Source: Meghimatium bilineatum
Lineage: Eukaryota; Mollusca; Gastropoda; Stylommatophora; Philomycidae
Assembly (NCBI GenBank): GCA_034231615.1
Contig: CM067309.1
Location: 22,687,965 to 22,751,964, forward strand
Direction: 5' to 3'
DNA: 64,000 nucleotides
Positions 21,701 to 24,700 of this stretch are shown here, piece by piece. The notes below the pieces were generated by a model. It was not told the origin of the DNA. It saw nothing but the letters and a program-made list of their open reading frames with translations, and did no database searches. A program made the translations under genes and the position numbers. The stretch's first letter is position 1; every line of letters starts with the position of its first letter.

Positions 21701-24700
21701 GGCGAACAACAGTATGTTGCTATTAACATCGGGACATAATAACACCGCACAGATTGTTACTTACAATACAGGTGAGTCACAATGTTCTGATTCCGCACAG
21801 GTTGTTACTTACAATACAGGTGAGTCACAATGTTCTGATTCCGCACAGGTTGTTACTTACAATACAGGTGAGTCACAATGTTCTGATTCCGCACAGGTTG
21901 TTACTTACAATACAGGTGAGTCACAATGTTCTGATTCCGCACAGGTTGTTACTTACAATACAGGTGAGTCACAATGTTCTGATTCCGCACAGGTTGTTAC
22001 TTACAATACAGGTGAGTCACAATGTTCTGATTCCGCACAGGTTGTTACTTACAATACAGGTGAGTCACAATGTTCTGATTCCGCACAGGTTGTTACTTAC
22101 AATACAGGTGAGTCACAATGTTCTGATTCCGCACAGGTTGTTACTTACAATACAGGTGAGTCACAATGTTCTGATTCCGCACAGGTTGTTACTTACAATA
22201 CAGGTGAGTCACAATGTTCTGATTCCGCACAGGTTGTTACTTACAATACAGGTGAGTCACAATATTCTGATTCCGCACAGGTTGTCACTTACAATACAGG
22301 TGAGTCACAATGTTCTGATTTTCTCTGATTGGGTATCTTCTTCTTCAGCGTACATTCTCAAACTCCCGCTGGGTCTCTTTTGTAGCAGAGCAATAGTCAT
22401 ACTAGACTTCCAGCAGGATGTCGTCCAGAGAATGAAAATGTGTTATGTCGCCGTTTTATTTGCTCCAATAGCTCGACACATCCGTCTTCAGTTGTTAATT
22501 TGGTATGCTTAGACTAAGGAAGCTAACCCGTACAGAAAACGCCCCGCTGTTAACACGGTGGGGGAGGTGGTCTTTCATGGTGCCTCAGTTTAAGGGGTAT
22601 TCTACATAAAATCTGGAGCCGGGACCCTAATGTTCATTATACATTAGCAGGATGCAGTCCAGAGAACGGAATGCGTTTTGCCATGGTTTACAGATTGCTG
22701 CGATATCTGCTCCTTTTGACTTGACGTATCCGACTTCATCATGGCTTCTGGGTCAGTGTGACCATCAATGGAAGGAGACAGTGATATTCACTCCAAACCT
22801 CATTTGTTGCCTCATACAATATGTATGGCATGTAACAATGTTGCTAATTTGTGCAATTAGCAAATATACATCCAATTCGCCCCCTGAAATCACATGTGCG
22901 AATCAATGGTGTATATTTCACTATTAACAAGTTGTTAACACAGTTATTAACATTGTTGACAAAAACCTCAAAAAACAATCGTGAAACGTCGTTACCTCCG
23001 GTGGTACGAGCAAGTGATGAGATATTCTTCGATCACAAAATATGTTCTTCAAGGTACGGCAGAGGGGGAGGGTGTGAAGTTTAGAACGGACAAGGCTAGA
23101 ACGGACCTCGTTCAATTCCCATCAGCTGTAAGAATTATGGAATGGTCAAGAAGTTTGAAGGTTTCCTGCAGCGGGATATTTACCAAGTCAATTGATATAC
23201 AAATCCCTCCAAATGGTCACCCCCTCGGTCTGACTTTCACTTTTCATTAGCTGGATACTCAGGGACCAATGAAATATTCTGATCTGCCAAGGCTAGACTG
23301 AGGAAGTGACCAGTTGTGAGAACCTATATTAATAGTCGGCTGTGTTTTGACCATGTATCATAATATAACATTTCAGACGGCATCTTGTGTGGAGCCATTC
23401 CTCTCCGGGGTAGAGTCAGCAACGTCAATGGTACATTCGTCCCTTCAGGCCAGCCAATCATTGTTGGTTATCGTGCCTACGTTATCACCCGATTTGTACC
23501 AGATGTGTCGGAGTCCTGGGTTGGTATTGCATTGTTTTGTTGGCATGTTATATCGAGACTATCTATTAGTATATATTATACTCTATTAAAGATGGTAGTG
23601 GTTATATCTGAGTCCCTCGTCCATCATTCAGCCACGTGGACTCATCGAGGATCATCCTTCAAAAGTGACGCTATTTTACTTTTCTCCTGGCTTTCATTGG
23701 CAGCCAACAAAAAGTGACAACTGAAGTTAATAGAAAAAGATGGAAAGGATCACTTTTGAAGGCAGGCCGTTGAGTACACAGGACCGTACAAGTGGCGAGA
23801 GACTTCTAGTCCTTCTTCAGAGTATATGTACTGCGCGCTGATCTCATGTAGCTTCACTTATCATGACGGATGTTACTTTTTCTGTACATTTCCGTGGCTG
23901 GCGGCGACACGAAGTGACCAATGATCTGTCGCATCAACCAAGTTAAGCAATGCTTTGTGGAGTCAACACGCATTGCCCATTTTATATACAAAGGCTGGTT
24001 CATGTCCTTTTGGCAGGGAAAAGCATCTTTAAAAGTTTAGTTGTGCCATTTTGACAATGGATGCAGTAACGAAAGGAAGAGCTGGGATACTAATATTCAT
24101 AACAAACATCCAAAAACTATAACTCTCATTCGCAACTGGCATATTATAAAAAAAACAGCAAGACAGAGCTACAAACAATCTTAGAAACATTAAGGTCTCT
24201 AAAGGAACAGATGCTCAAAGGAGCTAATATAGTCTTCTGGAATAGTACTCCAGATCATCCAAAAAGAACCTAAAGATCTAACAAAAACAACCGTATTACT
24301 TGTAAATCCACTGTCTGCTAACAATAAAGTTGTGCTGCAGTAGATCCCTGCACACTGTGGATCAAATGAGGCAGCTGACAGACAGGCAAAAGCAGGTGCA
24401 AAAAAAAAAAAGAAACAATTCCAGCACAGAATATCACTGACTGAAGCAAAAATTATCATCAAAAGAAAATACAAACATACATGGAGTCAGAGAACATGCA
24501 ACTTTCCACAAGAACACATTCTAAAGCTAAGCAGATCACATCAAATCTCAATTTTATGCTCCACACAGGACAATGTAAACTACAAGCACATCACAAAATG
24601 AATGTTGTTCAAACTGACCAATCCTCGTCAAAAGGGTCCCAGACCACATTCTGCAGATATGCCCACTCTTCGATGACGTGAGAACTAAAATATGGCCCCA

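Follow-up and report, generated by a model that had tools for sequence, protein, structure and literature searches.

A minisatellite with multiple splice donors in human IFI6 (6-16, G1P3) was reportedly described by Turri, Cuin and Porter in 1995 (Nucleic Acids Res 23:1854). The IFI6 array starts near the end of exon 2 and consists of about 26 copies of a 12-nt unit. Two downstream repeat units serve as donors, resulting in three mRNAs, and the predominant product is the 130-residue form (PMC4526556, partial text). A second human example is ABCA7, in which the VNTR of intron 18 starts at the donor of exon 18. In this case, retention of one VNTR unit produces a minor isoform (2 +/- 1%, on one reading of the word "respectively" in the source) that is unaffected by VNTR length, and longer arrays go with more skipping of exon 19 and lower expression (PMC5954066, partial text). 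In amphioxus, so-called mirages have been described in globin and Adh3 genes (PMC3087553, partial text) and in Adh, TnC and PGBD5 (PMC3902484, partial text); those of BflGb6 are homogenised in the interior, with the boundaries excluded (PMC3087553, partial text). Among human segmental duplications, 66% of intron-forming boundary repeats also have transcripts in which the repeat stays exonic (PMC2812944, partial text).

The array reported here lies in a 64-kb stretch of Meghimatium bilineatum DNA (the window, in its full length). It is a true example of this described arrangement, with an in-frame unit of 16 codons, and is ordinary until transcripts show the use of multiple donors. The original prediction knew of no described gene with such an arrangement, whereas arrangements of the same kind exist in human IFI6 and ABCA7 and in the amphioxus mirages. 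What it proposed for the anatomy of the locus is upheld, given the gene model; the absence of precedent is not. Like IFI6, the array consists of minisatellite units carrying donors, which in IFI6 act as alternative donors and give rise to different protein isoforms; unlike IFI6, it has 12 copies of a 48-nt unit specifying 16 residues, and is known from genomic DNA. As in ABCA7, where the donor of the next unit is used at a low level (PMC5954066, partial text), the array starts at the donor of the exon itself and contains it. However, the ABCA7 unit is 25 bp long from the GT, its retention shifts the frame and its alleles reach about 427 units, whereas 27 nt of the unit described here are exonic and the frame is preserved. 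Tandem duplication across an exon-intron boundary, repeated splice signals and homogenised interior units are shared with the amphioxus mirages, as far as the partial texts describe them, although these belong to a different animal and the present array is known from the sequence of one assembly. Internal tandem repeats that lie at exon-intron boundaries and alter gene structure are likewise found in human segmental duplications, but those are recent human paralogues supported by transcripts, with the repeat often exonic (PMC2812944, partial text). A word search of the open-licence literature (titles and abstract starts) found no boundary minisatellite in a mollusc.

The repeat array

Tandem Repeats Finder identifies a minisatellite with a period of 48, 12.0 copies and 99% matches, and a tandem repeat of such quality is not attributable to chance. 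The array and the signals within or next to it are as follows.

21745..22320, + strand: minisatellite of 12 units of 48 bp, each made of the 27-nt end of predicted exon 3 and the 21-nt start of intron 3
21772..22305, + strand: twelve identical gtgagt donors, the first at 21772, then one every 48 bp, the last at 22300-22305
22326..22328, + strand: TGA, the first in-frame stop if every donor is left unused, directly after the array

The proposal of twelve near-identical units is borne out: nine of the 12 are identical, and units 1, 11 and 12 carry one base change each. The array is the same as that originally placed at 21747-22322, the exact span differing by a shift of 2 bp. Its interior is homogenised, with variants confined to the three units named, and, conditional on the gene model, the unit spans an exon-intron boundary. 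All 12 copies of the sequence CAGGTGAGT on the + strand of the window lie within the array, and the - strand has none. Every unit was also said to end in an acceptor-like sequence; this sequence, ttctgattccgcacag, is present, in 11 copies rather than 12.

A DNA search of the species' own genome (1.61 Gb, 32 contigs), which skips very common words and so does not prove uniqueness, returned the array locus and one 67% match on another contig, the latter to all appearance, by eye, an unrelated short repeat. A dispersed element was rejected, as this search, within the same limit on common words, found no second copy. A separate 4-bp repeat, TATC, with about 165 copies and 100% matches, occupies 20695-21353, within the predicted intron ahead of exon 3 and about 340 bp from that exon.

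The host gene

By joining exons from splice signals and phase, we infer a gene of six exons, the first of which is possible but weak.

17454..17685, + strand: tentative exon 1 with start codon, weak (coding-bias chi2 2.8)
18459..18693, + strand: predicted exon 2, whose start may instead be 18502, after an alternative acceptor, ending in phase 2 (chi2 3.2)
21692..21771, + strand: predicted exon 3 if the first donor is used, 80 nt, entering in phase 2 and leaving in phase 1, its last 27 nt being the exonic part of unit 1
23377..23519, + strand: predicted exon 4, with an in-frame junction to every array donor
25443..25908, + strand: predicted exon 5, from splice signals and phase
29039..29403, + strand: final predicted exon, containing the stop codon, placed by splice signals and phase

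The phases of the six joined exons match, and one open frame runs through to the stop. The three-position base bias of the joined coding sequence has a chi2 of 41.0, whereas 2000 sets of intronic control pieces matched in length gave a mean of 5.8 and at most 21.7. The test is generous because the exons were picked for open frames, while a control piece was allowed to contain stops. Most of the bias comes from exons 5 and 6 (25.2 and 27.1, compared with 9.1 for exon 3 and 9.4 for exon 4), and exons 1 and 2 contribute little. Intronic test windows were stop-free in 0 of 2461 cases at the length of exon 5, 7 of 2461 at that of the last exon and 604 of 2461 at that of exon 3. Exon length and bias thus support the 3' end of the gene well, whereas the support for exon 3 comes from phase and splice sites only.

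Of 4049 candidates from a large protein set, none is homologous to the host protein at E<=1. PDB sequences give nothing better than E 0.55, and the one match of the protein in Pfam is a chance match below the cut-off. A propeller family is absent from the Pfam matches at E<=10, a search whose filters drop most matches above 0.1. In tblastn against the window and 20 sampled stretches, the protein matched its own exons and, beyond these, sequences at E 5 or worse, and Rfam gave no match at gathering thresholds. The gene at 17454-29403 therefore has no recognised relative in Pfam, PDB or protein searches, yet its last two exons are strongly coding-biased. Because the gene has no detected homologue, exon 3 lacks independent confirmation. 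A single-sequence structure model of exon 5 was useless (pLDDT 32.1). Neither these searches nor this model confirmed the propeller-like fold suggested in the original prediction. Of ten other ORFs of the window searched against Pfam, one gave a match, a reverse transcriptase fragment at 10598-11032 on the - strand (RVT_1, E 2e-15).

Donors, reading frame and predicted splicing

The donor that ends exon 3 was said to recur in every unit, and CAG|gtgagt is indeed present in 12 of 12. This donor agrees with the consensus at 9 of 9 positions, compared with 8, 5 and 6 for the other three donors scored; that of tentative exon 1 lay outside the scoring. The last exonic bases before the array donors are 21771, 21819 and so on to 22299, and, given the gene model, all of these leave phase 1 and join exon 4 in frame, as had been claimed. 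Also confirmed is the absence of stops from the unit of 16 codons in the gene's frame. As in an IFI6-type array, a consensus donor in the same frame thus recurs in each of the 12 units. In silico, the first donor joined to exon 4 reads ...VTYNT|DGIL..., and the isoforms that were spliced, with 0, 1, 2 and 11 extra units (four of the 12 possible), have a single stop each, at the end; the other eight are also open because the array is stop-free in this frame. Every further unit adds 16 residues. The claim that every repeat adds a Cys holds for most units but fails for unit 11, which has Tyr, so that 11 units contribute 10 Cys. Skipping of exon 3 in silico breaks the frame and leads to an early stop.

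Microexons of 19 nt formed from unit acceptors and unit donors were rejected as well: with the one unit tried, an early stop results whether the microexon is in place of exon 3 or after it, and the intervening intron would be just 29 nt, which is too short for animal splicing. RNA structure that hides donors was also rejected, the folding being not unusual either for exon 3 with the array (z -1.28, 20 shuffles) or for three units (z -0.93, 200 shuffles).

Chance expectation

Given a donor, the probability that a repeat has a unit length divisible by three and adds only stop-free intronic codons is about 0.20 with the intron composition of this region, and the in-frame state of the array, at about 1 in 5, is unremarkable. 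Under one rule (period 15-200, at least 2.8 copies, at least 75% matches), 77 non-redundant minisatellite arrays were found in 200 kb sampled at 20 preset places, of which two flank the window and 18 lie elsewhere, and 10 in the 64-kb window. One sampled 10-kb stretch (L005) alone holds 11 of the 77. A strict donor consensus is contained in none of the 77 sampled repeat units and in one of the 10 window arrays. If a density of 156 to 385 arrays per Mb is extrapolated to 1612 Mb, with units of 30 bp and a true donor every 10 kb as assumed values, roughly several hundred to about two thousand arrays straddling a donor would be expected in this genome without selection.

Origin and possible function of the array

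The array is likely to be a boundary minisatellite of the known kind, in which the first donor or donors do most of the splicing and occasional in-frame slippage is tolerated. A 48-bp segment straddling the boundary of exon 3 and intron 3 would have been tandemly duplicated in a minisatellite-rich genome and homogenised via slippage or unequal exchange, leaving the donor in its present 12 copies. The first donor is most likely used in most transcripts, giving the 80-nt exon 3 with zero extra residues; the next one or two may be used at a low level, producing isoforms with one or two added 16-residue units, and the remainder of the array would be ordinary intron. In competition experiments, the winner among several equal donors can reportedly be the intron-proximal one, which counts against a preference for the first. 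That preference is in line with the parallels: in ABCA7 and IFI6, most splicing still goes through the regular donor. The distribution of variants, limited to units 1, 11 and 12 around a uniform interior, resembles the BflGb6 mirages (PMC3087553, partial text).

Because the unit is in frame and stop-free, slips would be mild and the array could be tolerated; selection for a function would not be required. By analogy, such repeats are not always passive, as the exon 19 skipping of ABCA7 and the repeats kept in human exons indicate (PMC5954066 and PMC2812944, partial texts). Nevertheless, this one is probably an accident that has been tolerated in a genome rich in repeats. The fallback of the original prediction, that the splicing machinery tolerates competing donors, is better supported than its isoform proposal. 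Twelve identical donors, equally spaced and all in frame, constitute a natural experiment in 5' splice-site choice, since every choice leaves a readable product. The array further illustrates how a repeat that lands on a splice site could lengthen an exon in steps of 16 residues or give rise to a new intron.

If the gene model were wrong near exon 3, the array would be intronic or outside any transcript and its donors would never be used. Exon 3 is short, at a length where nearly a quarter of intronic windows are stop-free, and is without homologue support. However, it joins exons 2 and 4 with matching phases and a fair acceptor, its donor outscores the other three and its skipping breaks the frame in silico, so that we consider an error here unlikely.

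It is quite improbable that the exon instead runs to the last donor or near it, with the 11 repeats forming constitutive coding sequence as in an ordinary coding VNTR. The absence of stops in the gene's frame and the position of the last donor, nearest to exon 4, agree with such an exon, as does the exonic retention common among human boundary repeats (PMC2812944, partial text). Yet an exon of this kind, 608 nt long, must bypass 11 strong donors of identical sequence. In addition, the unit's second part starts with gtgagt and, judging from the edges of the array, was plausibly intronic before duplication.

A device for protein diversity, in which the choice of donor and polymorphism in copy number would add between 0 and 11 mostly Cys-bearing 16-residue repeats to give functionally distinct isoforms, is very unlikely. 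The 12 donors are identical, strong and all in frame to exon 4, but this in-frame, open state has the chance expectation given above, and the units, with three variable sites, are too alike to reveal selection at the protein level. The contiguous frame of exon 3 and the array (211 residues) is predicted to form a regular stack of strands that reads as a beta-solenoid (mean pLDDT 77.0, pTM 0.76), with the five models spanning 77.0 to 54.7. This structure was modelled from a single, perfectly repetitive sequence and has no confident PDB match (best E 0.53). Perfect repeats folded from a single sequence are prone to over-confident models, and the putative beta-solenoid is a lead only. Donors in such repeats are usable, as IFI6 demonstrates (PMC4526556, partial text), but isoforms with variable 16-residue repeats are unsupported here. 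Least credible is a splicing "dial" in which the twelve equal in-frame donors would yield 0 to 11 stacked repeats, within one cell and between individuals, that could form a beta-solenoid of variable length limited by copy number.

Other sequences in the sampled DNA

A further stretch (L023, on contig C2) contains a nuclear copy of a piece of mitochondrial COX1 at 1501-2124, in which five TGA codons are read as stops. Among the 120 matches listed of 7977, the nearest to this piece is a mitochondrial entry of Octopus vulgaris (78%), although entries from fly and bug reach 77% over a slightly smaller part of the query. By eye, the COX1 piece is followed by a short tandem repeat.
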